Counted from the stretch's first letter, positions 6,893 through 57,676 are shown. The stretch: 64,000 nucleotides of DNA from an uncultured Ectothiorhodospiraceae bacterium (GCA_947258695.1 CAMYJG010000023.1:1-64000), one strand, 5' to 3'. Notes: generated by a model not told the origin, from the letters alone. Made by a program: numbers and translations.

Positions 6893-8242
6893 ATGACTAA
6901 ATCCAATCAGGTGTTAATTGTAGAAGATGATGAAGGCTTGCAGAGACAGCTTAAATGGAGTTTAAGTGAATATGATGTTCTGATTGCTAATAACAAGGAA
7001 GAAGCGATTGCTTTAGTTCGACGTTATAAACCAGAAGTTGTAACCCTTGATCTAGGTTTGCCACCTGACCCTGCTAATGTTAGCGAGGGTTTTGCTACTC
7101 TCGAAGAAATATTATCACTGGTGCCAGAGACAAAGATAATTGTTATTACAGGAAATGACGATCGAGATAATGCTATCAAAGCCGTTACAATGGGTGCGTA
7201 TGATTTTTATCAGAAACCTATAGACCCCGAAATAATAAAAATTATTATCGATCGTGCTTATAAATTGTATTTGTTAGAACATGACTACAGGTTGTTGCAG
7301 AAAAGCACAAATGAATCCCCATTGGAAGGGTTAATTACAGCGGATAAGGGAATGTTGCAAGTTTGCCGTACTATTGAAAAAGTGGCTCCGACTGATACCA
7401 CTGTTTTGTTGATCGGTGAAAGTGGTACCGGAAAAGAAATTCTTGCACGTGCATTACATGAATTAAGCAACAGCATCGAGGAAAAATTTGTAGCAATAAA
7501 TTGTGCTGCCATACCTGAAAATCTATTGGAAAGTGAACTTTTTGGTTATGAAAAAGGTGCGTTTACTGGAGCTGCTAAAAGAACCATTGGTAAAGTAGAA
7601 ATGGCAAATGGGGGCACATTATTTCTTGATGAGATTGGCGACTTATCTATGCCTTTGCAAGCAAAAATACTTCGCTTCTTACAAGAGCGAGTAATTGAAA
7701 GAGTTGGGGGGCGGGAAGAAATCGCTCTTGATGTTAGAGTCATTTCTGCTACACACCATGATATTAAAAATATGGTTGCCAACGAGGAGTTTCGAGAAGA
7801 TTTATTTTATCGTTTGAGTGAAATTACTATTAAAATTCCACCACTTCGGGAGCGTGCCAATGATGCGGTAATATTGGCGAGACATTTTTTAGGAAAATTT
7901 GCAAATCAGAATAAGAGAACGATTAAAGGTATAGCGAATACTGGGTTGCTTGCGATCGAAAATCATGATTGGCCAGGTAATGTTCGTGAGCTTGAGAGCA
8001 CACTTAAAAGAGCTGTAATAATGGCAGAATCGACAATGTTAACTGATAAGGATTTAGGGCTTGAAAATAAAGGAGGGTATAAATTATTGCTAAGTCTGCG
8101 TGATACAAGAGAAAAAGCCGAGAAAGAAGCTGTAACACATGCTTTAAGTCATACTGGTGGTAATGTTTCAAAAGCTGCAGAGTTGCTCGGTGTAAGTCGA
8201 CCAACGTTATATGATATTATGAATAAACATGATCTTAAATAA
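6893..8242 (+). CDS. prsR: PEP-CTERM system sigma-54-dependent response regulator PrsR
   Basis: A 449-residue NtrC-type activator. The receiver domain (about 5-125) has the acidic pair E11/D12 and phosphoacceptor Asp53 in TLDLGLPP. The AAA+ domain has Walker A GESGTGKE (175-182), the sigma-54 contact loop GAFTGA (222-227) and Walker B LFLDEIGD (243-250). A Fis-type helix-turn-helix at the C-terminus contains SKAAELLGVSRPTLY. All residues needed for sigma-54 activation are intact, so it should act at -24/-12 promoters. One near-consensus site lies before the PEP-CTERM gene at about 31.1 kb and a weaker one at 42.6 kb. The start is 6 bases after prsK, and the end overlaps xrtA by 14 bases. Confidence 0.96.
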   Translation: MTKSNQVLIVEDDEGLQRQLKWSLSEYDVLIANNKEEAIALVRRYKPEVVTLDLGLPPDPANVSEGFATLEEILSLVPETKIIVITGNDDRDNAIKAVTMGAYDFYQKPIDPEIIKIIIDRAYKLYLLEHDYRLLQKSTNESPLEGLITADKGMLQVCRTIEKVAPTDTTVLLIGESGTGKEILARALHELSNSIEEKFVAINCAAIPENLLESELFGYEKGAFTGAAKRTIGKVEMANGGTLFLDEIGDLSMPLQAKILRFLQERVIERVGGREEIALDVRVISATHHDIKNMVANEEFREDLFYRLSEITIKIPPLRERANDAVILARHFLGKFANQNKRTIKGIANTGLLAIENHDWPGNVRELESTLKRAVIMAESTMLTDKDLGLENKGGYKLLLSLRDTREKAEKEAVTHALSHTGGNVSKAAELLGVSRPTLYDIMNKHDLK

Positions 8243-9815
8243 TCTGCTGAAAAACCAAAACCTGAAACAGTTTTGGTTAGTTTTATTTATATCAATATTA
8301 GTTGTTGTTTTTTATTTCCAGTCAGTTCGTAGTCTATTCGAGCTTTGGGTGACATCAGGGAATTCAACATATTCTCATGGGTCGATCTTGTTTTTAGTTG
8401 CCCTATATGCATTTTTAAAACGTTTTGACTCAATGTCGCCAACTATTGTAATCAAAAATGATATTTTTGGTTGGGTTGCTCTAATGATGGTCTCATTTAT
8501 ATGGGGTGGCTTCATAGTGGCCGGAATTAAAGTTGGGTACCAGCTTTTAATTGTCATGATATTTCCCATATGTCTATGGTTCCTTTTTGGGATTAAGATG
8601 GCCTGGAAAATATCCATACCGTTATTTCTAATATTATTTGCAATACCGGTATGGGAGACAATAAACCAGGGACAGTTACAAATTATGACTGCCTATCTTG
8701 TTACCAAATTATTAATACTGTCTGGATTTTTGGTTTACAGAGAAGGTATAGACATAATGGTGACGGCTGGCTCATTTCGTGTGGCGGAGAACTGTTCTGG
8801 TATTCGTTTACTTTTAGTAGCCATGCCGTTGTCGCTAATATTCTCATATATAAATCAACTTAGGTTGAAGTATGCGATTATATTTTTTGTTGTATCAATT
8901 CTAGCTGCTGTAATAACTAATTTGATCAGAATTTATATAGTGATAGTTGCCGGGCAACTGACTAAAATGCAGCATTATTTTGTTACGGAAGATCATGTCA
9001 CTCTAGGATGGGTTCTTTTTGCTTTTATTTTTTTAATTTTATTCACAGGGTCAAAAAAGATACTAGGTAAATTTAATGCAGCAGAAATGACATCTGCTAG
9101 CAATAAAGTAACAAATAAGTCACTTAAAACCACAAGTGTTAACATGGTCCGTACTATGACTTTAGTTTTAATTGGGCTTCTGCCAGGCCCTCTTTATATT
9201 CAATATGTTCAGAATACAGATTTATATATCAATGAAGATGTTAAGGTAGAAGTGAGTTCTGGATGGGAGATAGAAGCAAATGATATTGGTTTTACTCCAA
9301 TTCTATTGCCTGCTGACTGGGAATATAGGCAAGGCTATGTAAAGGATGATAAACGGATAAACCTTTATATTAATTATTATTCTGTACAACGAGATAACAG
9401 CAAGGCGTTATCCAAAATTAATAGTTTGTATGATAGAGATAAATGGCATTTAATAACTAGTACTATCGTAAATTTTCAAGAAAACAACTCAAATAATAAT
9501 ATTACAGCTAATATGTATTTGATTGAAAATAACGCAGGACAACAAAAATACATTTGGCAATGGTATTATCTATGGGGTAAGCATACAGGTAAATACAGCT
9601 ATGCTAAATTACTGAGTATTCTTGGTGCTTTTATTAATTATACTGATGCAAGCATGATTATTCTAGAGATGGACGTATTGACGGATAGCCGAGCGACAGG
9701 AAATATATTAGAGGAATTTGCATCTCTATTAATTAAACCTGTGACAAATGTACTTGAAACGAAATTAACAAAACAGCAAAAGAGTGAAGAGCATGATGTG
9801 CAGATTACGAATTAA
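8229..9815 (+). CDS. xrtA: Exosortase A (XrtA) with C-terminal EpsI domain
   Basis: A multipass membrane cysteine transpeptidase-like protease of the exosortase family that cleaves PEP-CTERM sorting tails. About eight membrane helices fill residues 1-280, with the TYSHG segment near residue 45. The catalytic triad is visible: Cys189 in AENCSGIRLL, Arg234 in NLIRIYIV and His256 in TEDHVTLGWVLF. Residues from about 330 to 510 are a periplasmic EpsI-type domain, so this is the fused form (528 residues) common in XrtA systems. The gene overlaps prsR by 14 bases and prsT by up to 32. Its likely substrate in this window is the small PEP-CTERM protein at 30.6-31.0 kb. Identification is strong because all three catalytic residues and the gene order agree. 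Confidence 0.96.
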   Translation: MILNNLLKNQNLKQFWLVLFISILVVVFYFQSVRSLFELWVTSGNSTYSHGSILFLVALYAFLKRFDSMSPTIVIKNDIFGWVALMMVSFIWGGFIVAGIKVGYQLLIVMIFPICLWFLFGIKMAWKISIPLFLILFAIPVWETINQGQLQIMTAYLVTKLLILSGFLVYREGIDIMVTAGSFRVAENCSGIRLLLVAMPLSLIFSYINQLRLKYAIIFFVVSILAAVITNLIRIYIVIVAGQLTKMQHYFVTEDHVTLGWVLFAFIFLILFTGSKKILGKFNAAEMTSASNKVTNKSLKTTSVNMVRTMTLVLIGLLPGPLYIQYVQNTDLYINEDVKVEVSSGWEIEANDIGFTPILLPADWEYRQGYVKDDKRINLYINYYSVQRDNSKALSKINSLYDRDKWHLITSTIVNFQENNSNNNITANMYLIENNAGQQKYIWQWYYLWGKHTGKYSYAKLLSILGAFINYTDASMIILEMDVLTDSRATGNILEEFASLLIKPVTNVLETKLTKQQKSEEHDVQITN

Positions 9816-19610: not shown

Positions 19611-21572
19611 ATGTGTGGCGTTGCGGGTATATATCATAAGAATAAAGAAAACATAGTCAACCAACAGACGTTAAAAAATATGGTGAGGTTGTTACATCAC
19701 CGTGGTCCAGATGAAGAAGGCTACTGGATTAAAGATAATGTCGGTCTGGGGCACGCACGATTAAGCATAATAGATTTATCGTCTGGGCAACAACCTATTC
19801 ATAATGAAGATAAAACCATCTGGGTTGTATTTAACGGTGAGATTTTTAATTATGTTGAGTTGCGTCATGAATTAATTGCTCAGGGGCATAGCTTTTATAC
19901 TAAATCAGATACTGAAGTTATTGTTCATCTTTACGAACAATATGGCCGTGATTTTGTCCGATATTTAAATGGCCAGTTTGCTATTTGTTTATGGGATGAT
20001 CGGAAAAAAGAACTCATATTAGTTCGCGATAGGGTTGGAATAGTCCCTCTGTATTATACTGAACAAAATAAGGATGTTATTTTTGGTTCAGAAATAAAAG
20101 CAATTATTGCAGCACTTGATACCTCGCCTGTTTTAAACCCAAATAGTCTCGATCAATTAATGACATTCTGGTCACCTATTAGTCCAAATACTTTATTTAA
20201 AGACATCTATGAAGTTAGCCCAGGCAATATGATTATATTTTCGGGCAAAAAAGAAGTTATCCAATATTGGGATTGGAGTTTTAGTAATAAAGATAGTTAT
20301 TTACAGGGAACGGATGAAGAGTTAGCAGGAACATTGCATGATCTTTTGATCGATGCTACTAAAATACGACTACGTTCAGATGTGCCGGTAGGAGCATATT
20401 TGTCTGGGGGGCTGGATTCTTCCGTTTTAGTATCACTAATACATCATTATAGTGAGAATTCATTAAGGACGTTTTCTATTTCTTTTGAGGATAAGGGGCT
20501 GGATGAAAGTGACTATCAAAAAGAAATGATCGAGCATTTATCAACCCAGCACAGCCAGATTTTTTGTAAAAATAGTGATGTTGGGGCTGGTTTCTTGGAT
20601 ACTATTTGGCACACTGAAAGCACGATATTACGTACCGCACCTGTGCCGATGAATATCTTATCTGGCTTAGTCCAAAAACAAAATTACAAAGTTGTACTTA
20701 CAGGCGAAGGTTCGGATGAGGTATTGGGCGGTTATGATATTTTTAAGGAAACTAAAATTCGCCAATTTTGGGCTCGGAATAAGAATTCACAAATCAGACC
20801 GATTTTATTAAAACGATTATATCCTTATTTAGATATATCTAAAAAGCAGGGATTGGTATATCTACAGAATTTTTTTGGAGCAGGTCTGGATGCTCCAGAA
20901 CAGAATATTTTTTCTCACTTGCCGCGCTGGCAAACTACCGCTAAATGCAAAGATTTTTTTTCCAATGATTTAAAATCGCATTTATCAGATAATGCGGTAG
21001 ATTTGATAAATAATACATTTCCAGAGCAATTTTCTGAGTGGGAATCTTTTAATAAGGCTCAATATATTGAATCAAAATCTTTAATGTCTGGTTATTTATT
21101 ATGCTCGCAAGGTGATCGGATGTTAATGAAAAACTCAGTTGAAGGAAGATTTCCATTTCTTGATCATAGAGTGATCGAATTTGCTAATAAATTAGACCCT
21201 CGAGTTAAAATGAAAGTACTTAACGAAAAATATTTGTTAAAAAAAGCGATGCAACAATATTTACCAAAGAATATTGTTAAAAGGTATAAACAACCTTATC
21301 GAGCACCAGATATTGCTGCTTTTTATTCTGGAAACACACCGGAATATGTCGAGGATATGATAAGTAATGCTAAAATAGCGGATTATGGATACTTTGATCC
21401 CAAACGCGTCGAACGTTTAATTGCAAAAATTAAAAAGGGAAGAGCTATAGCCTATAAAGATAATATGGCTTTTGTAGGAATATTATCAACACAATTATGG
21501 CACCTTCATTTTATTGAAAATTTTAATAAAAATTTTTCGTTTAACACCCAATTGTCAGCAAGTATTAATTGA
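19611..21572 (+). CDS. Asparagine-synthase-type amidotransferase (first copy)
   Basis: A 653-residue glutamine-dependent amidotransferase. Cys2 follows the ATG directly (MCGVAGIY), as needed for class II glutaminase activity, with HRGPDEEG and FNGEIFNY in the glutaminase half (1-190). The synthase half has the ATP pyrophosphatase loop SGGLDSS near residue 265 and GEGSDEVLGGYDIF. It adenylates a carboxylate and replaces it with an amide. Next to an acyl carrier protein, an adenylating ligase and a NAD-synthase-like gene, the substrate is unlikely to be free aspartate; a uronic acid carboxyl or carrier-bound acid is more plausible. A second paralogue lies at 54.6 kb. Similar genes occur in many XrtA loci. 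Confidence 0.93.
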   Translation: MCGVAGIYHKNKENIVNQQTLKNMVRLLHHRGPDEEGYWIKDNVGLGHARLSIIDLSSGQQPIHNEDKTIWVVFNGEIFNYVELRHELIAQGHSFYTKSDTEVIVHLYEQYGRDFVRYLNGQFAICLWDDRKKELILVRDRVGIVPLYYTEQNKDVIFGSEIKAIIAALDTSPVLNPNSLDQLMTFWSPISPNTLFKDIYEVSPGNMIIFSGKKEVIQYWDWSFSNKDSYLQGTDEELAGTLHDLLIDATKIRLRSDVPVGAYLSGGLDSSVLVSLIHHYSENSLRTFSISFEDKGLDESDYQKEMIEHLSTQHSQIFCKNSDVGAGFLDTIWHTESTILRTAPVPMNILSGLVQKQNYKVVLTGEGSDEVLGGYDIFKETKIRQFWARNKNSQIRPILLKRLYPYLDISKKQGLVYLQNFFGAGLDAPEQNIFSHLPRWQTTAKCKDFFSNDLKSHLSDNAVDLINNTFPEQFSEWESFNKAQYIESKSLMSGYLLCSQGDRMLMKNSVEGRFPFLDHRVIEFANKLDPRVKMKVLNEKYLLKKAMQQYLPKNIVKRYKQPYRAPDIAAFYSGNTPEYVEDMISNAKIADYGYFDPKRVERLIAKIKKGRAIAYKDNMAFVGILSTQLWHLHFIENFNKNFSFNTQLSASIN

Positions 21573-21583
21573 CGGAGTAAATT

Positions 21584-21832
21584 ATGTCTTTAGAAGAACA
21601 AATACGCGGTTATGTGTTGGAAAACTACCTTTTCACAGATGATCAATCTGCACTGAATAGTGCCGACTCTTTTTTGGAGAAAGGAATACTCGATTCAACA
21701 GGTATTCTGGAGGTAATATATTTTATTGAAGATGAATTTAATGTCAAAGTTGAAGATGATGAGATGATACCTGAAAATCTGGATTCGGTTAATCAGATCG
21801 TTGCTTACATTGGAAAAAAACAAGGTTCCTAA
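21584..21832 (+). CDS. Acyl carrier protein
   Basis: An 82-residue acidic, helical carrier protein. The phosphopantetheine attachment site is Ser38 in GILDSTGILEVI, preceded by the SFLEKG turn of dedicated (non-fatty-acid-synthase) carriers. DEFNVKVEDDEM forms the recognition helix region. It lies 11 bases after the amidotransferase and 6 before the adenylating ligase, so it most likely receives an acyl or aminoacyl group from that ligase. A phosphopantetheinyl transferase is not in the window. Family certain, cargo unknown. Confidence 0.93.
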   Translation: MSLEEQIRGYVLENYLFTDDQSALNSADSFLEKGILDSTGILEVIYFIEDEFNVKVEDDEMIPENLDSVNQIVAYIGKKQGS

Positions 21833-21838
21833 TATACA

Positions 21839-23380
21839 ATGTCCGTTTCACTGCTTAATCTATTAAATTCCGCGGTAGATAATTATCCTGAGAATATAGC
21901 TGTGTCTCATAAGGATGTCAGTGTGACCTATATTGAACTATGGCATAAGGTTTGCGATCTTTCGAATTATCTGAAAAAAAATGGTTTAAATAAAGGCGAT
22001 CGGGTATCACTATTACTAGAGAATTCTATCGAGTATGTGATTACATATTACGGAATCCTTGCGGCAGGTGGAGTCGTTATCGCTCTTAATACAGCAACTA
22101 AATCACGAGACCTTACACGTTGGATTAGACATAGTGACTCAAAATGGTTATTTGTTCAGGCCGATCATCCTGAACTATTAAAAATAAATAATTCGGAATT
22201 AAATATAAACAATATATTGGTCGGTAATACTGATATTGAGATAAATAACGCAACTAGCTGGGATGTAATATTCAAAAGTAATTACCAGATATTACCGGAA
22301 CTGGAAATTCAGAATGATGATTTAGCCGCTATTATTTACACATCAGGAACAACGGGTAATCCAAAAGGAGTTATGTTAAGTCATAAAAACTTGCATCATA
22401 ACATATGCTCAATACTGGAATATCTCGAAATTACTAATGAGGATAGTATATTAAATGTACTCCCATTTTATTATTCTTATGGTAATTCTATATTACATAC
22501 TCATATCGCTGTGGGTGGAAGAATCGTTTTGGAAAATAACACATTATTTCCCAAAAGAATATTGAAGGAAATGGAAGATAAGAAGGTCACTGGATTTTCC
22601 GGAGTTCCTTCAACGTTTGCATTATTAATGAATCGAACTAAGTTTTCTGATTTTAATTTGTCAAAGCTGCGTTATATGACGCAAGCCGGAGGTGCTATGG
22701 CTCCTGCAAATATTGATCGGCTAAAAAATGAATTATCAGATGTAAAATTTTTCGTTATGTATGGGCAAACAGAAGGAACAGCTCGTCTTGCATATTTACC
22801 TCCCGATCAACTAGTAATAAAACGAGGATCTATCGGTAAGGCTATTCCAGATATTAAGCTTGAGGTGCAAGATATAGATGGGAACAAATGTCCACCTCAT
22901 GTTACGGGTGAGATTTGTGCTAAGGGGGATAACATTATGCTTGGTTATTGGAAAGATCCTGAAACTACAAAAAAAGTTATTTGTAATGGTTGGTTGAAAA
23001 CAGGTGACCTTGCTCATTATGATGATGATGAGTTTATATATATAGATGGTCGCTCATCTGAAATGATTAAAAGTGGCGCGCATCGAATAAGTCCGAAAGA
23101 AATTGAAGAAGTAATATTGGAATTAGATTTGGTATCAGAGGTGGCTGTTATAGGGGTGCAGGATGAACTACTAGGACAAACAATTAAAGCGGTCATTGTA
23201 CCTAAGACGGACATTAAAATTAACAAGCTGCAATTGTTATCTCATTGCAAAGAAAATCTAGCAAATTATAAGGTGCCTAAAATAGTGGATTTTGTAGAGT
23301 CATTACCTAAAACGCCGTCAGGAAAGATTAAGCGATTCATGTTAAACAAAACTAAGATTAAGGAATATAACAATGTCTAG
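21839..23380 (+). CDS. AMP-dependent synthetase/ligase (acyl- or amino-acyl-activating)
   Basis: A 513-residue ANL-superfamily enzyme that activates a carboxylic acid with ATP and passes it to a thiol. The P-loop-like motif YTSGTTGNPKG is at 167-177, followed by MYGQTEG, GWLKTGDLAHYDDDEFIYIDGR (split here as TGDLA and IDGRSSEMIKSGAHRISP) and the catalytic Lys in TPSGKIKR near the C-terminus. The small carrier protein directly upstream is the obvious acceptor. Substrate cannot be read from sequence; amino-acid adenylation motifs of NRPS A domains are not present. It overlaps the next gene by 8 bases, indicating translational coupling. Confidence 0.93.
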   Translation: MSVSLLNLLNSAVDNYPENIAVSHKDVSVTYIELWHKVCDLSNYLKKNGLNKGDRVSLLLENSIEYVITYYGILAAGGVVIALNTATKSRDLTRWIRHSDSKWLFVQADHPELLKINNSELNINNILVGNTDIEINNATSWDVIFKSNYQILPELEIQNDDLAAIIYTSGTTGNPKGVMLSHKNLHHNICSILEYLEITNEDSILNVLPFYYSYGNSILHTHIAVGGRIVLENNTLFPKRILKEMEDKKVTGFSGVPSTFALLMNRTKFSDFNLSKLRYMTQAGGAMAPANIDRLKNELSDVKFFVMYGQTEGTARLAYLPPDQLVIKRGSIGKAIPDIKLEVQDIDGNKCPPHVTGEICAKGDNIMLGYWKDPETTKKVICNGWLKTGDLAHYDDDEFIYIDGRSSEMIKSGAHRISPKEIEEVILELDLVSEVAVIGVQDELLGQTIKAVIVPKTDIKINKLQLLSHCKENLANYKVPKIVDFVESLPKTPSGKIKRFMLNKTKIKEYNNV

Positions 23381-24365
23381 CACATTAACAGAAATTTATA
23401 CTAAAGAAGTGATCGATTTTGATAAAGATAAAGAAGTGGAAAAAATAAGTAATCGATTACGTGAAATATTACGGAATAAATTGCATCGTAGAGGTTTGGT
23501 TATTGCGATGTCAGGAGGTATTGATAGTTCTGTTTGTGCAGCATTAAGTGTGGCAGCGTTGGGAAAAAATAAAGTTTTTGGTATGTTATTACCTGAGCAA
23601 GATTCATCATCTGACAGCTCAAAAAGAGGCGATTTGTTAGCAAAGCATTTGGGAATTGAATGTGTTGTGCATGATATTGCTCCAGCACTTTCCGCAATAG
23701 GTTGTTATGAATGGCGAGATGAAGCAATCAAAAAAGTCTTCCCAGAATATGGCGAAGGTTGGAAGAATAAAATAGTAATATCGGGTGGTTTGGAAGGTCA
23801 AGTAAATCATTTTAGACTTGTAGTGCAAACTCCAGACGGGGAAATGAAGGAAGATCGATTACCATTAAAAGAATATTTACAAATTGTTGCAGCAACGAAT
23901 CATAAGCAGAGAATCAGGAAGACGATGGAATATTTTCACGCTGATCGCCTGAATTATGCTGTAGTAGGAACACCGAATCGTCTTGAATACGATCAAGGAT
24001 TTTTTGTTAAAAATGGAGATGGTTCTGCTGATGTAAAACCAATAGCACATTTATATAAGACTCAAGTATATGCATTAGCGAAACATTTGGGATTGCCCGA
24101 TGAAATCTGTTCAGCGATTCCAACTACTGATACTTATAGTCTTTCTCAGGGACAGGACGAGTTTTACTTTTCTCTTCCATATCAACAAATGGACATGGCT
24201 CTATGGGCTCATAATCATAAGATTGCGACTTCAGAGCTTGCTGAAGCACTTAATATTGATGAAGCACATGCGGCTTTTGTATATAACGATATTGAGACAA
24301 AACGTCGTACTACACAATATTTGCACGCAAAGGCAGTATTAATAGAAGATATAGCTGAGTTGTAA
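23373..24365 (+). CDS. NAD(+)-synthase-like amidating enzyme
   Basis: A 330-residue member of the NadE family: N-type ATP pyrophosphatase loop MSGGIDSS near residue 47, and a C-terminal part with KNGDGSADVKPIAHLYKTQV and LGLPDEI, clearly homologous to ammonia-dependent NAD synthetase. The usual GTSNKSE substrate motif is changed to GTPNRLE, and a linker of about 50 residues precedes it. No glutaminase domain is present, so ammonia would have to come from elsewhere, possibly from the adjacent amidotransferase. The gene overlaps the ligase by 8 bases inside a polysaccharide operon, which suggests a repurposed paralogue rather than the housekeeping enzyme. Whether it still makes NAD is open. Confidence 0.88.
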   Translation: MSSTLTEIYTKEVIDFDKDKEVEKISNRLREILRNKLHRRGLVIAMSGGIDSSVCAALSVAALGKNKVFGMLLPEQDSSSDSSKRGDLLAKHLGIECVVHDIAPALSAIGCYEWRDEAIKKVFPEYGEGWKNKIVISGGLEGQVNHFRLVVQTPDGEMKEDRLPLKEYLQIVAATNHKQRIRKTMEYFHADRLNYAVVGTPNRLEYDQGFFVKNGDGSADVKPIAHLYKTQVYALAKHLGLPDEICSAIPTTDTYSLSQGQDEFYFSLPYQQMDMALWAHNHKIATSELAEALNIDEAHAAFVYNDIETKRRTTQYLHAKAVLIEDIAEL

Positions 24366-26156: not shown

Positions 26157-26846
26157 ATGAGCAAAAGAAAAATTACGGCACTGTTACCAATGAAAGCTTT
26201 TAGCGAAAGAGTTAAAAACAAAAACTTTCGGGACTTTTCTGGAAAACCATTATATCGATGGATGTTGGATACTCTGCTTGAGATAGATGAAATTGATAAT
26301 ATAGTAATAAACACTGACGCAAAATTTATTTTGTTTGATGAAATGTTACAGAAAATGAAACGTGTAATCCTGCGTAATAGAAAATCTGAACTTTGTGGAG
26401 ATTATGCAAGTATGAATTTAGTGATCGAGGATGACATTAATGCCGTACCATCAGATTTGTTTTTAATGACACATACTACCAACCCTCTGTTGAGCGCGAA
26501 AACTATTAGAAAGGCGATAAAATTATTTGATTCCACCCATCAGTGTGATTCATTGTTTACAGTGAATAAAGTTCAAACACGATTTTATCATAAAGATACT
26601 AGCCCAGTGAATCATGATCCAAACAATCTAATTCGAACTCAAGACTTGGAGGTTTGGTATGAAGAAAATTCATGCTTGTACGTGTTTACTGCAGAAAGTT
26701 TTAAGAATAGAAATGCAAGAATTGGAGTGCATCCTGTGATGATGGAAACGCCAGCTCTGGAGTCTTTCGATATCGACGAGCCTGATGATTGGATTATCGC
26801 AGAGTCTGTAGCTTTATACAGCAAAACAATGGCAGTAAGCACCTAA
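26157..26846 (+). CDS. Acylneuraminate cytidylyltransferase-like (CMP-sugar synthetase family)
   Basis: A 229-residue enzyme of the NeuA/KdsB-like nucleotidyltransferase family. The N-terminal loop ALLPMKAFSERVKNKNFRDF is a variant of the usual PAR-x-GSK-x-x-x-KN motif. Further on come INTDAKF, the D-L-F-L-M-T-H-T-T-N-P-L core (residues near 98-109) and SFDIDEPDDW near the C-terminus. It should transfer CMP from CTP to a sugar acid. It is followed after one base by a 2-hydroxyacid dehydrogenase and then an SDR, resembling parts of nonulosonate pathways, but no NeuB-type synthase occurs in this window. The activated compound is unknown and may be new. Confidence 0.88.
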   Translation: MSKRKITALLPMKAFSERVKNKNFRDFSGKPLYRWMLDTLLEIDEIDNIVINTDAKFILFDEMLQKMKRVILRNRKSELCGDYASMNLVIEDDINAVPSDLFLMTHTTNPLLSAKTIRKAIKLFDSTHQCDSLFTVNKVQTRFYHKDTSPVNHDPNNLIRTQDLEVWYEENSCLYVFTAESFKNRNARIGVHPVMMETPALESFDIDEPDDWIIAESVALYSKTMAVST

Positions 26847-26847
26847 C

Positions 26848-27780
26848 GTGACCTCTAATCTGAAAGTGTTGATTACTTGCCCACCTATGATAGGTATGAA
26901 AGATCAATTCATATCATTGTTACAAGATAAAGGGATCGACGTGTTTATGCCTAATATAGAGCAAACATTATCAACCTCTGAGCTTATAAAGCTCGTTCCG
27001 CAATATGATGGTTGGATAATTGGTGATGATCAAGCGACTCGAGATGTTTTTAAAGCAGGTAGCGAAGGAAGGTTAAAAGCGGCGGTAAAATGGGGTGTAG
27101 GTGTAGATAATATAGATTTTGCAGCATGTAAAAATTATGGTATAGAAATAACAAATACACCTGGTATGTTTGGTGCTGAAGTTGCGGATATTGCTATTGC
27201 GTACTTAATCGGGCTTGCTCGAAATTTATTTTTTATTGATCGAGAAGTGCGAAATAATATTTGGAAAAAGATACGAGGAGTATCGCTAGCAGGGAAAAAA
27301 GTAGGACTAATAGGTTTTGGTGATGTTGGAAAACATGTGGCAAAACGCATACTTGCATTAGATATGGATGTGACAATATATGCTCGTTCGAGTAGTACTG
27401 CTGACTATGAATTTATCAAGTGGCCTGAACGAGTTAGTGAGTGTGATTTTTTAATTTTTACCTGTTCACTTAATAAGAAAAATTATCATATGCTCGACGA
27501 TACAGTGATATCAGAAACGAAAAAGAATGTCAGAATTATCAACGTTGCCAGAGGCCAATTAATTGATGAAGCTGCTCTTGTGAGAGGGCTGCAGTCTGGC
27601 CAGATTAATTCGGCTGCATTAGATGTTTTCGAAATAGAGCCGTTACCGGTTGATTCGTTGCTACGTACTATGGATAATTGCATTTTCGGTTCGCATAATG
27701 CATCAAATACCAACGAAGCAGTTGCAGCGACAAATATACGGGTTATTGACGAATTATTTAGAATAATGGGAGTTCGATAA
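26848..27780 (+). CDS. D-isomer-specific 2-hydroxyacid dehydrogenase (phosphoglycerate dehydrogenase-like)
   Basis: A 310-residue NAD-dependent dehydrogenase of the SerA family. The cofactor loop is VGLIGFGDVGKH, and the catalytic Arg is in INVARGQLIDEAAL, Glu in LDVFEIEPLP and His in GSHNASNT. Length matches the minimal two-domain form without an ACT domain, so it is not a housekeeping SerA. It begins with GTG one base after the cytidylyltransferase stop. Together with the neighbouring SDR it would supply oxidation/reduction steps on a hydroxy- or keto-acid sugar intermediate. Direction and substrate cannot be read. Confidence 0.9.
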   Translation: MTSNLKVLITCPPMIGMKDQFISLLQDKGIDVFMPNIEQTLSTSELIKLVPQYDGWIIGDDQATRDVFKAGSEGRLKAAVKWGVGVDNIDFAACKNYGIEITNTPGMFGAEVADIAIAYLIGLARNLFFIDREVRNNIWKKIRGVSLAGKKVGLIGFGDVGKHVAKRILALDMDVTIYARSSSTADYEFIKWPERVSECDFLIFTCSLNKKNYHMLDDTVISETKKNVRIINVARGQLIDEAALVRGLQSGQINSAALDVFEIEPLPVDSLLRTMDNCIFGSHNASNTNEAVAATNIRVIDELFRIMGVR

Positions 27781-27785
27781 CACTT

Positions 27786-28520
27786 ATGGAGCAGTGTGTT
27801 TTAATTACTGGTGCAACTGGCGGTATAGGTAAGGCCTTATGCAAATCATTTAAGAAAGCAGGCTACTATATAATTGCAACCGATATACTCCAGGATTTCA
27901 CAGGAGCTGATGCATATTATTCGATGGATCTTGTTGAGTTTGTAGCTAATGAGACACAAAAAAAATCTTTTTTGAAGTTTATAAAAAAATCATCAAAGGG
28001 GAAAAAGCTAACAACCTTGATAAATAACGCAGCTGTACAAATATTAGGAGGGGTGTCGGACATTACTGTCAGTGATTTCAGGAAAACTCTTGAAGTTAAT
28101 GTTATGGCACCGTTTTTACTGATGCAATCATTGTTACCAATGCTAGAAGAATCTAAAGGGTCTGTAATAAATATAGGAAGCATCCATTCGAGAGCAACCA
28201 AACCAAAATTTTTAGCCTATGCAACAAGTAAAACTGCTTTAAAAGGTTTAACTCAGGCTGCATCAGTTGATTTAGGTGGGCATGTGCGGGTTAATAATAT
28301 TCAACCAGCTGCCACAGCTACAGAAATGTTGATGGAAGGTTTTAAAGATGAAGATAAACTAGACGAGCTAAAAAAATATCATCCAATTGGCCGAATTGCA
28401 GAACCACTTGAAATAGCTGACATTGCTGTGTTTTTAGCTTCAGATAAAGCAAGTTTTATAACAGGTGTGTCCTTAAACGCAGATGGTGGGATAGGTGTTC
28501 GCCTATATGATCCTGAATAG
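27786..28520 (+). CDS. Short-chain dehydrogenase/reductase
   Basis: A 244-residue classical SDR. The cofactor loop ITGATGGIGKA is at 7-17, NNAAVQ follows the fourth strand, and the catalytic Ser and Tyr-x3-Lys are in GSIHSRATKPKFLAYATSK (split across about 135-155). The C-terminal ASFITGVSLNADGG is typical. No preference for NAD or NADP can be decided. It ends the five-gene run that began at 24.45 kb, 5 bases after the dehydrogenase. Similar SDRs accompany CMP-sugar synthetases in legionaminate-type clusters, where their exact role is also unclear to me. Confidence 0.9.
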   Translation: MEQCVLITGATGGIGKALCKSFKKAGYYIIATDILQDFTGADAYYSMDLVEFVANETQKKSFLKFIKKSSKGKKLTTLINNAAVQILGGVSDITVSDFRKTLEVNVMAPFLLMQSLLPMLEESKGSVINIGSIHSRATKPKFLAYATSKTALKGLTQAASVDLGGHVRVNNIQPAATATEMLMEGFKDEDKLDELKKYHPIGRIAEPLEIADIAVFLASDKASFITGVSLNADGGIGVRLYDPE

Positions 28521-37621: not shown

Positions 37622-38695
37622 TCAGTTACGCCCCAGAATTTTTTTAACAATAGAACGTAACGATTTCTGAATTTTTCTGATCCAATAGGTGCTGTGTTTT
37701 TTTATTATTAGAATGTTATGGTTTGCTCGATACTGATTAGTAAATCGCGATTTAAATGGTTCATTCCCAATAGTAAAGTCAATCTCTGTTTTCTTGTTGG
37801 TTAGTGCATGTTGAATTAAATATCTAATCAAGAGAATACCTGGCGAGCGATTAAAGTACTTGATATTAAAGGAAGGTTTGTACCAAAGAATTTTCGAGTC
37901 GTAATCAAAGCCATAATGAAAGGATAGCGGAGTTCCATCTAATTCAATGACGGTAAATATCAGCTTTCCAGTTGGAAGTAATTTGTTGGCAAGATGCCGA
38001 TAAAAATCCTGATTCCGCTTATTCATAAAAAGGCTTTTGGTGTTGGTTGCTTCCCATCTTTCTATGTGTTGTTCAAAAAACACAGGTAAGTATTTAGTTA
38101 GTTCGGTTTTGTCGTCTACATTATGAAAACTTAATACGCCTTGACGTTTGAAGTAATTAAAGGGTCTTTTCGTGCTATATTTATCTATGATTTTTTGTGC
38201 GTTTCGTTCATGATTTTTAATGATTAATGTTGGGCACACTATAGTGTCATTTGTAAGACAGTATAAGTTTGTTTGTTTGCAGTCTGCGTGCAGTAATTTA
38301 TGAGTACTGGATTGCTCAGGAATGTTAAGGAGAGAAACAGTTTTCCAAAGATCAGAATTTTTACTCAAAAAATCACAGATTATATTAAGTGCTGCCCTTT
38401 TTTCTATTGGGAGTACAAAATCAAGGTAATCAGAGTTGGCGTCACCGATAAAGGATAGAGTTTTAGCTCGTTTATTGGTGTTGGTGAGCATGAGTGGAGC
38501 AAAACCAATTATTTGATTGTTTTTATGAACGGTTAGGAAAAATAGTTTGTGTTCTACTCCAAATGTCTTCCACCAGCTATCAAACCATTCGAAAGTTTGA
38601 AAAATCGTATTAGTTTCATTACGCGCAACGAGGTTATTCCATTCAGATGGGGTTATAGGGATGTTATCAGGATCTTTTATTAGTTTTATATGCAA
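37622..38695 (-). CDS. GNAT/FemAB-like acyltransferase (CelD/BcsL-type)
   Basis: A 357-residue protein of the double-GNAT fold group often annotated as GNAT or cellulose-biosynthesis CelD-like. It begins with a WNNLVARNETNTIFQTFEWFDSWW segment (residues near 18-41), then has IIGFAPLML and a second half with a conserved IDFTIGNEPFKSRF segment near the C-terminus. These proteins transfer acyl or aminoacyl groups to amino sugars or lipids. Translation starts at TTG with no upstream Met, and no good Shine-Dalgarno is visible. It sits 30 bases downstream of the DegT aminotransferase, which could create the amino group that it acylates. Substrate unknown. Confidence 0.85.
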   Translation of the reverse strand: MHIKLIKDPDNIPITPSEWNNLVARNETNTIFQTFEWFDSWWKTFGVEHKLFFLTVHKNNQIIGFAPLMLTNTNKRAKTLSFIGDANSDYLDFVLPIEKRAALNIICDFLSKNSDLWKTVSLLNIPEQSSTHKLLHADCKQTNLYCLTNDTIVCPTLIIKNHERNAQKIIDKYSTKRPFNYFKRQGVLSFHNVDDKTELTKYLPVFFEQHIERWEATNTKSLFMNKRNQDFYRHLANKLLPTGKLIFTVIELDGTPLSFHYGFDYDSKILWYKPSFNIKYFNRSPGILLIRYLIQHALTNKKTEIDFTIGNEPFKSRFTNQYRANHNILIIKKHSTYWIRKIQKSLRSIVKKILGRN

Positions 38696-44487: not shown

Positions 44488-45540
44488 ATGATCGAAATTA
44501 TAAATAACATTAAGTCGCTTGAAAAAATTCGCGAGGAATGGGATCAACTTTCAAGACATTTTGAATCTCCGCTTCTTTGTTATGATTGGTTTTATTCATG
44601 TATTAATACACTGTGTGACGAGGTGGATTTGCACATTATTGTTATGCGGGATAAGAACCAAATCGTAGGTATTGCGCCACTGTGTGTCAATACTAAACAT
44701 GAATTTAAGCGGCTCGAGATTATAGGTTCTTCGGAATTGTATGAACCTGGTAATCTAATTTACAAAGATAAAGAAACTTTAAAGCTACTGCTTAAAGTAA
44801 TATCAAAACAAAAATTACCTACCGTGTTGTTGAGGATGCCAGGGAATGCGGAATTTAATAGTGCACTGGATGGCTTAAGTAGTATTCATAGTTTATGCAT
44901 CAAGAAATCAACCGCTTCAGCTTGCTATATCGATATTGCTACAGACTGGGAAGCTTACTTTGCTGGGTTACCATCTAAAAGGCGCTACAATTTTAAGCGT
45001 AAACAAAAATGTCTTGAAAAATATGGTTACGTAAAATATAAAATTTTCTCCCCAGACTGTTCTGAATTAAATAATGTATTGCATAAGGCTTTTTTAATTG
45101 AAGATAATGGTTGGAAAGGGCGGAATAACTCGTCATTAATTAAGAAAAAAAAGCTACTTGATTTTTTTGTGAAATATCTAACAAGCTGCAATGAGAATGG
45201 TGAGTTAAGAATTTGTTTCTTATTGGTAAATGATATAGAAAAAGCCATGCATATTGCGATTGAGCATGCGAAAACATTCTGGGTGTTAAAGTTGGCTCAT
45301 GAAGATGAGGTGTCTCGTTGCTCTCCTGGTATACTACTTGCGAATGAAACAATTAAATATAGCTTTGATGAAAAACTTAGACGTTATGAATTTCTTGGTT
45401 CTGCTGAAGGATGGCAAAATTCCTGGCCTGTTGAAAAACAAAACTTATGTTCAGTGATAATATTACCTGTTAACCTTCTAGGTATTTATTCTATTTTGAA
45501 ACTTGTTTTAAAAAAAATATTAAACAGAATTAGAGCCTGA
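44488..45540 (+). CDS. GNAT-fold acyltransferase-like protein
   Basis: A 350-residue protein related in layout to the GNAT/CelD-like gene at 37.6 kb: an opening segment LEKIREEWDQLSRHFESPLLCYDWF, then IVGIAPLCV, a basic KRRYNFKRKQKCLEKYG stretch in mid-protein and a C-terminal FLGSAEGWQNSW region. The C-terminal 30 residues are hydrophobic and may touch the membrane. Probably acylates an amino sugar or lipid intermediate. It lies 39 bases after the fusion glycosyltransferase and before a 911-base gap, so the two genes likely form their own unit. Confidence 0.83.
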   Translation: MIEIINNIKSLEKIREEWDQLSRHFESPLLCYDWFYSCINTLCDEVDLHIIVMRDKNQIVGIAPLCVNTKHEFKRLEIIGSSELYEPGNLIYKDKETLKLLLKVISKQKLPTVLLRMPGNAEFNSALDGLSSIHSLCIKKSTASACYIDIATDWEAYFAGLPSKRRYNFKRKQKCLEKYGYVKYKIFSPDCSELNNVLHKAFLIEDNGWKGRNNSSLIKKKKLLDFFVKYLTSCNENGELRICFLLVNDIEKAMHIAIEHAKTFWVLKLAHEDEVSRCSPGILLANETIKYSFDEKLRRYEFLGSAEGWQNSWPVEKQNLCSVIILPVNLLGIYSILKLVLKKILNRIRA

Positions 45541-53133: not shown

Positions 53134-54552
53134 ATGAATGCAAATCTGAAGTCGTTGTATGACAAATTACCAGCCTTCGTTCAAAATTCAGTCCTGACGG
53201 GTTATAGTTTTCTTCTGGACTTGGAAAGATATAGTGGTAAATATACTCAATATAAAAAATTATTAACTGAGTCGCAATGGTATAGCGATGTTGAGCTTGA
53301 GACATATCAGAATGAGCAACTTACTCAACTAGTCCGGCATGCATATAATACTGTCCCATATTACAACAGAATATTTAAAGAGAGAAACCTTAAACCGGAT
53401 GACATTAAAAAAAGCTCTGATCTTTTAAAGCTACCGGTGCTTAGGCGGAAGGATATTCAAGAGAAATTTCACGAGCTACAATCTGATAAAATAGATAAAC
53501 GAAAACTTAAATTAGGTCACACTAGTGGAACGACTGGGACACCTCTGGAAGTCGGGTATGATAGTAACGTAATCTATTTCACATATGCGTTGATGGATCG
53601 ACAATACCAATGGGCGGATGTCAATTTAGCAAAATTTGGCGATCGAGTTGCTGTTCTACGTGGAAATGTGATAGTGCCAATTGAACAGAAAAATCCACCT
53701 TTCTGGCGTTATAATTATTTGCATAATCAGCTTCTTATGTCTGCTTTTCATATGTCGCAGAAAAACTTGCAACACTATCTGGACAAGCTTTGGCTATTTA
53801 GGCCGGCAGTTATTGATGGTTACCCTTCAACTTTGTATGTTTTTGCCAGGTTCTTATTAAACAATAATTTAACATTTCCTATGAAGGCTATAATTAGCTC
53901 GTCAGAAACATTATATGATTTTCAACGTGAGGCTATCGAGAAAGCATTTGTCACTGATGTTTTTGATTATTATGCTGCTGCAGAGCGTGTTATTTTTGCG
54001 ACTGAATGTAATCATCATAAGGGGCATCATATTAGTTCAGAATATGGTATTCTTGAAGTGCTTGACCAAAAAGAACGGCCAGTTTCTGCGGGTCAAGCAG
54101 GCTTAATGGTAGGTACTAGCTTACATAATTATGGTATGCCGTTATTACGATATGAAACCAGTGATATAAGCGCATTTAAAACTGAAAAATGCAGTTGTGG
54201 TAGAGGTTTGCCGCTAATGGATGATGTGGCAACCAAGTCTGAAGATATAATTGCGCTCAAGGATGGGCGAATGATTTCCCCGTCTGTTTTAACTCACCCA
54301 TTCAAACCTATGCATGGAATAGAGGCTTCGCAAATAATTCAAGAGGATTATGAGCATGTACGTATTAAAATTGTAAAAAATAATGGTTATAAAGATTCTG
54401 ATTCAGCCCATTTAATTAAAGAGTTTAAGAATCGATTAGGTGAAGATGTAAGGGTTGATATTGTGATTGTGGATGAGTTGTCAAGAACAAAATCTGGGAA
54501 ATTTAAATGGGTGATATCAAAAGTAGATAAAGGCATCAAAGTCCCATCTTAA
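53134..54552 (+). CDS. Phenylacetate-CoA-ligase-like adenylating enzyme (CapK/PaaK family)
   Basis: A 472-residue ANL-superfamily protein of the PaaK/CapK branch. The P-loop motif is HTSGTTGTPLEVG (129-141). Further motifs are YPSTLYVFARF, the AAERV segment and MPLLRYETSDIS, and the C-terminal lysine lies in SRTKSGKFKW. A zinc-type cluster SCGRG follows the catalytic core, as in other CapK proteins. It may activate an acid for attachment to the polymer, or work with the asparagine-synthase-type gene 63 bases downstream, mirroring the ligase/amidotransferase pairing at 19.6-24.4 kb but without a carrier protein. Substrate unknown. Confidence 0.91.
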   Translation: MNANLKSLYDKLPAFVQNSVLTGYSFLLDLERYSGKYTQYKKLLTESQWYSDVELETYQNEQLTQLVRHAYNTVPYYNRIFKERNLKPDDIKKSSDLLKLPVLRRKDIQEKFHELQSDKIDKRKLKLGHTSGTTGTPLEVGYDSNVIYFTYALMDRQYQWADVNLAKFGDRVAVLRGNVIVPIEQKNPPFWRYNYLHNQLLMSAFHMSQKNLQHYLDKLWLFRPAVIDGYPSTLYVFARFLLNNNLTFPMKAIISSSETLYDFQREAIEKAFVTDVFDYYAAAERVIFATECNHHKGHHISSEYGILEVLDQKERPVSAGQAGLMVGTSLHNYGMPLLRYETSDISAFKTEKCSCGRGLPLMDDVATKSEDIIALKDGRMISPSVLTHPFKPMHGIEASQIIQEDYEHVRIKIVKNNGYKDSDSAHLIKEFKNRLGEDVRVDIVIVDELSRTKSGKFKWVISKVDKGIKVPS

Positions 54553-54615: not shown

Positions 54616-56460
54616 ATGTGTGGTATAGCTGGAATTTTTGACAAAAAAAACAAGAGAATTGATGCTGATGTTATTTGCAGTATGCGTGACTCTATTGTGC
54701 ACAGAGGCCCAGATGACGAAGGTTATTATGTGGCCGGTAATATAGCGCTTGCACATAGACGGTTGAGTATTATTGATTTAAGCACGGGTCACCAGCCAAT
54801 GTTTACGAATGATAAGCGTCTATGCGTCGTATTTAATGGCGAAATATATAATTATGTTAGCTTGAGGGCCGAACTCTTAAAAAAAGGTTATAGTTTTAAC
54901 ACGCAATCTGATACGGAAGTATTATTGCATTTGTACAATGAGTACGGCGTTGAATGCGTAAAACATCTAAATGGTATATTTTCTTTTGCGATCTGGGATG
55001 ATAAAAATAAGGAGCTATATATAGCGAGGGATCATCTCGGAATAAAACCATTATATTATTTCAATACTGCTGATGCTTTCGTTTTTGCCTCAGAGGCAAA
55101 GGCTATATTTAAAAGCGGATATGTTGTGCCACAATCTAACAAAGATGCCGTGGCAGAGTATTTCATTTTTAGACATGTTGCTGGAGAGCAAAGCCTGTTT
55201 AAAGATATAAAATTACTACGACCTGGACATTACGTAGTGGTAAATGCAAAAGGTGTTTCTATACAACAATACTGGAATCCTGCGGCTACCAGACACGATT
55301 CCGGGTTAAGTTTTTCAGCAACAACAGAAAAACTTAGTGAACTACTGTATGATGCGGTAAAAATGCAAATGGTGAGCGATGTTCCAGTTGGGACTTTCTG
55401 TAGTGGCGGCATTGATTCCAGTCTTATTACGGCTATGGCGGCGTGTGAAGCAAAGCAGGGGATTAACACCTTCTCAGTGGGGTTTGACGAAGAAGGTTAT
55501 GATGAGACTTATTATGCACAAATGGTCTCAAATAAATATAAAACACAGCATCATGAATTAAAATTAAAGAATACGGAGTTCGCAGATTATTTGCCAAATA
55601 TGATTTGGAGTAATGATGAACCATTAAACTATGCTAATTCTGTGCATATATATGCGCTTAGTAAATTAGCAAAAGAATATGTGACAGTAGTATTGACAGG
55701 AGAAGGTGCGGACGAATTGTTTGGGGGGTATAATCGATATCACATCGCAAGGTACGTTTCGAGAGTTTCCTTTATACCTCAACAAGTCAGGCGCATATTA
55801 AGTAGCTTACTTATGTTATCAGGAGAACGCCGTTTAAAGAAATTGGCGACTTATTTAGGTGAGTCTCTGGAAAGCGTTCTTCTCTATAACAGCGCAACTC
55901 TGGATATGGGGATGATAAATCAGGTTGTTGATTATTGTGGTAAGGATACATTTGTATATCGAAATGCACTAATACAGGAAATGTTAGATACGAATGATGC
56001 GCTCAAACAAGTTACATTAATTGATCAGCAGACATATTTATCATCAATTCTAAATCGACAGGATAAAATGAGTATGGCTGCCAGTATTGAGTCTCGAGTT
56101 CCCTTTCTTGATTATCGTGTGGTGGAATTTGCTAATTCTATGTCGTCTGCTTACAAACAAGATGGAACACAGACCAAACTTATACTCAAGAAAGCTGCGG
56201 AACGTTATCTTCCTCATGAAGTGATTTATAGAAGGAAGTCGGGATTTGGTGTACCACTTTGTGAGTGGTTTAGGGAGAATGTGGGACTTGGAGAGTTAAT
56301 GAACGATACACTTACGAATGAGACACTGGAGGAGTTAGGTGGGAGCGTGAACCTACAGGCAAGCTTATCTGAACATAAGACAGGTAAAAAAGATAATTCT
56401 GAGTTTATTTGGACTGCACTTAATTATGTCCTCTGGAAAAAAACATTTGGTATAGTGTGA
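54616..56460 (+). CDS. asnB: Asparagine synthase (glutamine-hydrolysing)-type amidotransferase, second copy
   Basis: A 614-residue class II amidotransferase. Cys2 follows the start (MCGIAGIFD), with HRGPDDEG, FNGEIYNY and ARDHLGIKPLYYF in the glutaminase half. The PP-loop SGGIDSS is at 263-269, then GEGADELFGGYNRY, RQDKMSMAASIESRVPFLD and the C-terminal KSGFGVPL. All catalytic elements of an AsnB-like enzyme are intact. In XrtA loci such genes (recalled as TIGR03108) are thought to amidate the polysaccharide rather than make asparagine. It lies between the CapK-like enzyme and a glycosyltransferase (4-base gap), supporting that view. The first copy at 19.6 kb is clearly different in sequence. 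Confidence 0.93.
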   Translation: MCGIAGIFDKKNKRIDADVICSMRDSIVHRGPDDEGYYVAGNIALAHRRLSIIDLSTGHQPMFTNDKRLCVVFNGEIYNYVSLRAELLKKGYSFNTQSDTEVLLHLYNEYGVECVKHLNGIFSFAIWDDKNKELYIARDHLGIKPLYYFNTADAFVFASEAKAIFKSGYVVPQSNKDAVAEYFIFRHVAGEQSLFKDIKLLRPGHYVVVNAKGVSIQQYWNPAATRHDSGLSFSATTEKLSELLYDAVKMQMVSDVPVGTFCSGGIDSSLITAMAACEAKQGINTFSVGFDEEGYDETYYAQMVSNKYKTQHHELKLKNTEFADYLPNMIWSNDEPLNYANSVHIYALSKLAKEYVTVVLTGEGADELFGGYNRYHIARYVSRVSFIPQQVRRILSSLLMLSGERRLKKLATYLGESLESVLLYNSATLDMGMINQVVDYCGKDTFVYRNALIQEMLDTNDALKQVTLIDQQTYLSSILNRQDKMSMAASIESRVPFLDYRVVEFANSMSSAYKQDGTQTKLILKKAAERYLPHEVIYRRKSGFGVPLCEWFRENVGLGELMNDTLTNETLEELGGSVNLQASLSEHKTGKKDNSEFIWTALNYVLWKKTFGIV

Positions 56461-56464
56461 TATT

Positions 56465-57676
56465 GTGAAAACTGACGCAAAAGTTCAGAATTTGCTTTAC
56501 TGTGAGGGTAATGTCGACGGGACGATTGGAGGTTCATATTATAGCCTGTTTTTTCTGGTGGAAGGACTAGATAAAAAGAAATACAACCCGATCGTAGTTT
56601 TTCATAAAGAACATGATTTGTTACCGATGTTTAAAAGTGCAGGTATCGAAACACATATCTTTGAGCTTCCTAAATCCATCAATTTAGTCGCCAGACTTAA
56701 CTGCACAAGCATATTATTTAAGCCATTAATAATGTTGCAAAAATTCTTAAATGTAATGAGGTTTCTTGTATTTCGAGGAATCAAGTATGCAATTTTTCTT
56801 AAAAGGAAGAATGTTAAATTAATCCACTTAAATAATTCAATTTTAAGAAATCACAGCTGGATGTTGGCATCAGTCTTATCTGGAATAAAATGTATCACAC
56901 ATGAGCGCGGTATTAATGAGAAGTATTCTCGATTATCCCGATTTTTTGCAAGACGACTTTCTGCTATTATTTGTATCTCAAATGCAGTGAAACAAAAAAT
57001 GATCGATAAAAGCTTCGATCCAAAAAATTTAGTATTAATATACAATGGACTTGATCCAGAAAAAATCCAGATTAAACATAATGCAGCTGAAATGCGCACC
57101 CAGTACCAGATTGAGCAGGATTCTCCCATAATAGGTATTGTTGGAAATATTCGAGAATGGAAAGGCCAAGAGGTTGTGATTAAGGCCACGTATGAGATTA
57201 GTAAAAAATACAAGAACGTTAAATGTTTAGTTGTAGGCGACACTACTCCAGAACACCAAAGATATTATGATGGTTTGTTAAAAAGTATAGATGAATTAGG
57301 AATTAGCAATAATGTGATATTTACTGGCTATACTTCGAATGTCGCTGATTATCTAAATATAATGGATATAGTTGTGCATGCATCGATATTACCTGAACCT
57401 TTTGGCCGGGTTTTGATTGAGGCAATGGCTTTAGGGAAGCCTTTGATTGGCTCAGCATCTGGCGCAGTTCCAGAAATAATTGAAAACGGTGTAACAGGAT
57501 TAATTTTCAAGCCGGGTGACAGCATGGAATTATCTCATGCGGTTGTAAAATTATTAAAGGATCGTAAAAAAGCTAGTGAAATGGGTAGAAATGGGGCGAG
57601 ACGACTTTTGGATGAATTTCATGTTTCTAGAAACATAGAAAGAACCGAGCAGTTATATAGTAAATTGCTCGAATGA
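56465..57676 (+). CDS. Family 4 glycosyltransferase
   Basis: A 403-residue GT-B enzyme. The acceptor domain begins with DGTIGGSYYSLFFLVEGL and contains HLNNSILRNHSWMLASVLSG with HERGIN. The donor domain shows IIGIVGNIREWKGQEVVIKA, FTGYTSNVADYL and the E-x7-E region PEPFGRVLIEAMALGKPLIG. Starts with GTG four bases after the asnB-like gene, so the two are probably co-translated. A 266-base gap follows it with no gene, the only notable point being a GG-N10-GC pair at 57793-57806 without a TTGC box. Donor unknown. Confidence 0.92.
   Translation: MKTDAKVQNLLYCEGNVDGTIGGSYYSLFFLVEGLDKKKYNPIVVFHKEHDLLPMFKSAGIETHIFELPKSINLVARLNCTSILFKPLIMLQKFLNVMRFLVFRGIKYAIFLKRKNVKLIHLNNSILRNHSWMLASVLSGIKCITHERGINEKYSRLSRFFARRLSAIICISNAVKQKMIDKSFDPKNLVLIYNGLDPEKIQIKHNAAEMRTQYQIEQDSPIIGIVGNIREWKGQEVVIKATYEISKKYKNVKCLVVGDTTPEHQRYYDGLLKSIDELGISNNVIFTGYTSNVADYLNIMDIVVHASILPEPFGRVLIEAMALGKPLIGSASGAVPEIIENGVTGLIFKPGDSMELSHAVVKLLKDRKKASEMGRNGARRLLDEFHVSRNIERTEQLYSKLLE

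Follow-up and report, generated by a model that had tools for sequence, protein, structure and literature searches.

A four-gene operon uniting an NAD-synthetase paralogue with a dedicated acyl carrier protein: a possible route to amide-bearing surface sugars in several phyla

We find that four adjoining genes, encoding an AsnB-type glutamine amidotransferase, a dedicated acyl carrier protein (ACP), an AMP-forming ligase and a NadE-like protein, constitute one real and tight module rather than a chance neighbourhood, because the NadE-like gene and the ACP gene co-occur across genomes. The NadE-like protein is routinely annotated as 'NAD(+) synthase' and is very probably something else, and the operon probably builds an amide-bearing decoration of surface sugars. 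As to how, our judgement is evenly poised over an ACP-dependent acyl-amide module, in which the ligase charges the ACP, a carboxamide is formed and the acyl group passes to the nitrogen of an amino sugar. Somewhat more tentatively, we propose that a repurposed paralogue of NAD synthetase amidates a carboxylate on, or destined for, the dedicated ACP, and that the resulting carboxamide or N-methylcarboxamide acyl group is placed on surface sugars by N-acyltransferases in several phyla. The stretch analysed (hereafter the window) comprises 64,000 nucleotides from an uncultured Ectothiorhodospiraceae bacterium.

In the window the four genes follow one another head to tail along the plus strand, with spacings of 11, 6 and -8 bases. 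AsnB (19611..21572, 653 aa) begins with MCG and carries both a GATase domain, with a Cys2 glutaminase, and an ATP-pyrophosphatase synthase domain (PF13537 and PF00733); its TIGR01536 score of 510.6 bits, against a cut-off of 267.1, together with these domains, places it by sequence in the glutamine-hydrolysing asparagine synthase family. The ACP (21584..21832, 82 aa) has no Pfam match and weak NCBIfam matches of the ACP_for_OlsHI, AmcB and DltC type. Its DSTG motif holds Ser38 (codon 21695..21697), the expected site of phosphopantetheine attachment judging from the sequence, and S38 and G40 are invariant among 30 relatives. The third gene (21839..23380, 513 aa; PF00501 and PF13193) encodes a class I adenylate-forming ligase, which by its families and its Sinorhizobium meliloti homologue SMb20650 is a probable acyl-ACP synthetase, and the fourth (23373..24365, 330 aa) encodes a predicted NadE-like amide synthetase of the PRK00876 subfamily. 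The first-pass annotation had described four genes at most 11 bases apart or overlapping, and the coordinates, the family scans and the co-occurrence across genomes all agree with that description.

The NadE-like protein scores 495.7 bits against PRK00876/NF002048, well above the curated cut-off of 313, and hence belongs to that subfamily. Two features reported earlier are both seen: its GTPNRLE motif, kept as GTPNR[LV]E in 30 relatives where canonical copies mostly read T-G-N-K-S-E, and its lack of a glutaminase domain, none of which was found in a domain scan. The NadE catalytic residues (SGGIDSS, T200, E205, K213, K229 and K310-R311) and the ATP site are kept in the family, and the predicted model aligns best with Francisella NMN synthetase (3fiu) and with Pyrococcus NadE (2e18), each at Z 27.9; the former is a reminder that the NadE fold is able to switch substrate. 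While fold and catalytic residues are thus common to NadE, 3fiu and the NadE-like protein, the latter differs from both in its altered motifs, including the substrate loop (PTTDT...QxQxEFY), in its status as a paralogue beside canonical NadE, in its genetic tie to the ACP, and in a family-specific insert at residues ~107-171 (23691..23885). This insert is conserved, is largely missing in canonical NadE, and is modelled as a helix (111-122) and three strands (131-137, 146-152 and 158-162) with a mean pLDDT of 88. The window genome has a separate full-length canonical NadE of 554 aa on another contig (C15), and of the 29 other hosts, 22 have a canonical copy at E<1e-60 (23 of 30 when the window genome is counted), while several of the rest give partial matches. 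Consequently, a role as sole or main NAD synthase is ruled out, in line with the earlier view that this is no housekeeping enzyme, and NAD supply is an unlikely role because most hosts also have a normal NadE. No phage match was found for the NadE-like protein. A PRK00876-type NadE above cut-off was also seen in the archaeon Methanosarcina acetivorans, a control genome.

A scan with the NadE-like protein returned 29 loci, and all four genes stand together in 20 of them. Gene order is either that of the window or AsnB-ligase-ACP-NadE (Burkholderiales-type and Pseudoxanthomonas loci), with a different order in a planctomycete. Among 398 evenly drawn Pseudomonadota genomes, 15 possess a PRK00876-type NadE, and the best 15 genomes for an ACP profile run over the same sample are the identical 15, at 99.8-131 bits with the next at 66 bits, a gap that is still clear given that the profile was built partly from several of those 15 ACPs and that the 398 genomes are not independent. 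ACP and ligase lie beside NadE in all 14 of the non-window genomes in this set, and AsnB lies in the same stretch in 13, two genes intervening in one of these. Within Planctomycetota the NadE-like gene occurs in 6 of 199 genomes, and the five further loci among these have AsnB and ACP adjoining it. Module neighbourhoods repeat in several phyla. The NadE-like gene stands alone in 4 of the 29 loci; two of these genomes encode AsnB-ACP-ligase at another site, ACP-ligase pairs occur in a third, and neither arrangement was seen in the fourth, a short-contig MAG. Since three of the four have module parts elsewhere, we reject these lone genes as proof that the NadE-like gene is independent of the module.

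Variants of the cassette were also met. AsnB-ACP-ligase cassettes unlinked to NadE occur in Gemmatimonadales (L110:7194-11127, minus strand), beside DNA polymerase IV, HDOD and SLOG-type genes, and in Krumholzibacteriia (L111:4920-8810, plus strand). At one locus the ligase gene is missing, and its place is taken by a 337-aa protein (L009:8887-9897, plus strand) with no Pfam match, which by eye resembles a polysaccharide deacetylase.

The operon of the window lies within an XrtA/PEP-CTERM polysaccharide locus, as indicated by the exosortase XrtA, at 8229..9815 (8295-9047) on the plus strand, and by matches above cut-off to TIGR03013, TIGR02915, TIGR03027, TIGR03006 and TIGR03019. Directly 5' of AsnB is the XrtA-system polysaccharide deacetylase TIGR03006 (18710..19600, plus strand; 408 bits, cut-off 276), which could free an acceptor amine. 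Three candidate acyltransferases lie further off: a FemAB-type XrtA-associated transferase, TIGR03019 (40178..41215, minus strand), and two Acetyltransf_6 GNAT proteins (44488..45540, plus strand; 37622..38695, minus strand), whose homologues in loci L012, L019 and L034 are found, respectively, directly 5' of AsnB and within the same gene run. Two alpha/beta hydrolases related to TIGR03101 and TIGR03100 (47636..49400, plus strand) fall below the curated cut-offs and are possible thioesterases, and their homologues adjoin or lie near the module in L012, L033 and L103. Module-free relatives in the family have FemAB directly after the deacetylase, whereas in module-bearing relatives it is often AsnB that follows. 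A natural 'empty site' was not found among the 7 same-genus genomes searched, all of which lack both the NadE-like gene and the XrtA deacetylase.

The standard set of XrtA/PEP-CTERM systems likewise includes a ligase (TIGR03098), an amidotransferase (TIGR03108) and hydrolases (TIGR03100/03101). The window ligase and AsnB are relatives of the first two, but fall outside these families, at 382.3 bits against a cut-off of 592.35 and 445.4 bits against 816.9, respectively. Moreover, unlike the standard set, the NadE-containing module is also found without any exosortase. A search for the module with and without XrtA, as the first-pass annotation had suggested, recovered it in both settings: 19 of 38 module-bearing genomes lack an exosortase, among them every one of the ten Pseudomonadota from outside the window's class, and dependence of the module on XrtA is thereby rejected. 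The relevant families are not mentioned by Haft 2006.

Three further observations concern the same window. A second AsnB-type amidotransferase (54616-56460), nearer to TIGR03108 (518 bits, cut-off 817), follows a PaaK-like ligase (53134-54552). To the 3' side of the module, a PseF-like cytidylyltransferase (81 bits, cut-off 206), a D-2-hydroxyacid dehydrogenase and an SDR stand in a row (26157-28520), possibly an unusual CMP-sugar route. Finally, a second tRNA-Pro call (agg; 57396-57482) falls inside an ORF (56465-57676) that matches GT4 glycosyltransferases, and is probably false.

A clue to the chemistry comes from additional genes in some versions of the module. In four loci of the window's family, the ligase and NadE-like genes flank a HemK/PrmC paralogue (L152:6003-6896, minus; L154:11543-12457, plus; L158:9436-10329, minus; L159:7452-8345, plus), and such a paralogue adjoins the module in six loci of other Pseudomonadota. 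These paralogues score 165-205 bits against PrmC (cut-off 199), and a canonical PrmC at 250-308 bits is present elsewhere in every genome checked. PrmC methylates the primary amide of glutamine, so the presence of its own paralogue in the module suggests that a carboxamide is formed there and then N-methylated, and this constitutes independent support for the amide chemistry that the first-pass annotation had favoured.

The neighbourhoods also point to acyl transfer onto sugars. HemK/PrmC paralogues are found at 11 of 51 module loci (the 4 with the gene between ligase and NadE, and 7 others with it close by), FemAB or double-GNAT transferases near 21, deacetylases near 19, and any glycan gene of the window's kinds at 24, whereas each of these counts is 0 of 20 for control regions that surround canonical NadE genes of the same genomes; the module counts are lower bounds, as the search covered relatives of a small set of selected proteins, and the 51 loci are related to each other and were partly found through the same query. 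Double-GNAT proteins with no Pfam match lie beside or near the module (L015:5082-6158, plus; L144:25424-26542, minus; L018:8873-10009, plus), and one such family, modelled with a mean pLDDT of 90, resembles N-myristoyltransferases (Z 22.0) and Eis (Z 21.0) in fold. In a planctomycete the NadE-like gene has an AAC(3)-type transferase nearby, and at one locus a methylmalonyl-CoA-epimerase-like VOC protein (L157:2725-3138, minus) lies between the ligase and the NadE-like gene. An invariant arginine of the ligase (R316, in TE..R) was considered as an anchor for a second carboxylate, but says little, since relatives nearer to TIGR03098 have it too.

The module extends to a model symbiont. A search of plasmids recovered the NadE-like gene in 116 records, mostly from Sinorhizobium, and on pSymB of S. 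meliloti an asnB-acp-ligase-nadE operon stands alone near minCDE, with double-GNAT-like and HemK-like genes ~10 kb away. It has the same four genes in the same order and the same DSTG ACP as the window, with identities of 53% (NadE-like), 46% (AsnB), 40% (ACP) and 33% (ligase); it differs in having no adjoining polysaccharide genes and in its ligase subgroup, which is TECKR-type in S. meliloti and TExTAR-type in the window. Ramos-Vega et al. 2009 reportedly described precisely these four genes as an operon, among them those for an asparagine synthetase and an ammonium-dependent NAD synthetase. We identify the pSymB region as the SMb20651/SMb20650 operon on the basis of replicon, gene order and DST motif. 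The genes for the ACP (SMb20651) and the ligase (SMb20650) share a transcript (PMC7232532), and SMb20651 has been listed as a DST-motif protein whose function is called unknown (PMC12391972; also PMC5686131). The first-pass annotation knew of no characterised pathway with this set, which is still true, but the operon is not undescribed: its ACP and ligase have been studied in S. meliloti, so that the gene set is not wholly new. A literature search by family names did not find the four-gene set, the S. meliloti operon being reached only through plasmid matches and gene names.

Under the mechanism we propose, the ligase would adenylate an acid and load it onto the DSTG ACP; a carboxamide would then be formed from a free carboxylate, on either the acyl unit or its precursor, by AsnB using glutamine, by the NadE-like enzyme using ammonia, or by both; and in some lineages the extra HemK/PrmC-type enzyme would N-methylate this amide. 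A neighbouring N-acyltransferase, of FemAB/GNAT6, double-GNAT/NMT-fold or AAC(3) type according to lineage, would then move the acyl group from the ACP to an amino-sugar amine, such as one freed by the deacetylase directly 5' of the operon. The charging step agrees with findings on the S. meliloti homologues, where SMb20650 acylates SMb20651 on co-expression in E. coli and does not act as FadD (PMC7232532). We infer the remaining particulars: which acid is used, in what order the steps run, how amide formation is divided between the two enzymes, what accepts the acyl group and what is finally made. The first-pass annotation had suggested a uronic acid as the site of the amide, which our results do not bear out. 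We instead place the NadE-like step on the ACP pathway, mainly because of the perfect pairing of NadE and ACP, and an acid that is bound to, or destined for, the ACP is the likelier substrate because the NadE-like gene tracks this particular ACP and the operon stands alone on pSymB.

Several observations sit uneasily with the acyl-amide model. HemK-like and acyltransferase genes occur in a minority of loci and none adjoins the operon of the window, HemK-family enzymes are able to methylate other nitrogens too, no glycan gene adjoins the operon of S. meliloti, and the conserved ligase pocket gives no firm prediction of substrate. Furthermore, two amide-forming enzymes are hard to square with one amide; AsnB and the NadE-like enzyme may act on two carboxylates, or AsnB may join an amine other than ammonia. 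AsnB-family enzymes are known outside asparagine synthesis, as with the amidotransferase OxyD in the malonamyl starter, and the hydroxyamidotransferase 7ylz, which shares the two-domain architecture, is the best PDB sequence match of the window's AsnB. Literature searched by family name yielded no ACP and NadE partner set for such amidotransferases.

Alternative hypotheses may explain the same genes. The strongest of these, which we nonetheless consider unlikely, is a fatty N-acyl product, in which a fatty acyl-ACP synthetase and an NMT-like double-GNAT act on an amine and AsnB and NadE serve a separate part of the acceptor. The predicted fold of the double-GNAT neighbour is indeed closest to N-myristoyltransferases, tied with Eis, and C12 and C18 chains were reportedly seen by Ramos-Vega et al. 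Against this, the pocket region of the ligase is unlike that of ordinary acyl-CoA ligases, and the S. meliloti ligase is nearest to TIGR03098, whose substrate is unknown. Co-expression of SMb20650 in E. coli acylates the ACP SMb20651, as a fatty product would lead one to expect, but SMb20650 could not replace FadD when tested for oleate (PMC7232532). A fatty N-acyl product also leaves NadE and AsnB without a function on the ACP, although NadE tracks the ACP perfectly.

Two further explanations strike us as improbable, the second by a shade more than the first. AsnB and the NadE-like enzyme might make a uronamide or other sugar carboxamide, with the ACP and ligase serving to add an unrelated acyl group to the polymer that bears it; the module does lie within polysaccharide loci, and O-antigen loci have AsnB-type amidotransferases, e.g. 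wbpS, with a known or inferred part in uronamide formation. However, across the 398-genome sample neither the NadE-like gene nor the ACP subfamily occurs without the other, S. meliloti has the operon by itself, and no uronate gene was seen travelling with the module. Alternatively, the product could be a small diffusible metabolite of NRPS-like origin, nearby sugar genes being incidental. The bare S. meliloti operon would fit this, as would some versions outside the window's class that have an added A-T-TE NRPS module, a free thioesterase or an AraC regulator, yet several loci outside that class have Poly_export and initiating sugar transferase genes close by, and within it the module is often set among core polysaccharide genes. 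Lastly, a spare or local NAD (or NMN) synthetase would account for the kept catalytic residues and for the model's alignment with the Francisella and Pyrococcus enzymes, but is very improbable given canonical NadE in hosts, the tracking of the ACP, the conserved insert and the altered loop.

The ACP-dependent acyl-amide reading, which we prefer to these alternatives, links an orphan operon known from a model symbiont with the polysaccharide loci of several phyla; its hosts range from environmental bacteria that make polysaccharides to Sinorhizobium, a symbiont of legumes. It offers testable chemistry, namely a carboxamide and an N-methylcarboxamide, and the bare S. meliloti operon is genetically tractable. 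If true, it would represent a new type of ACP-dependent amide pathway, common to several phyla.
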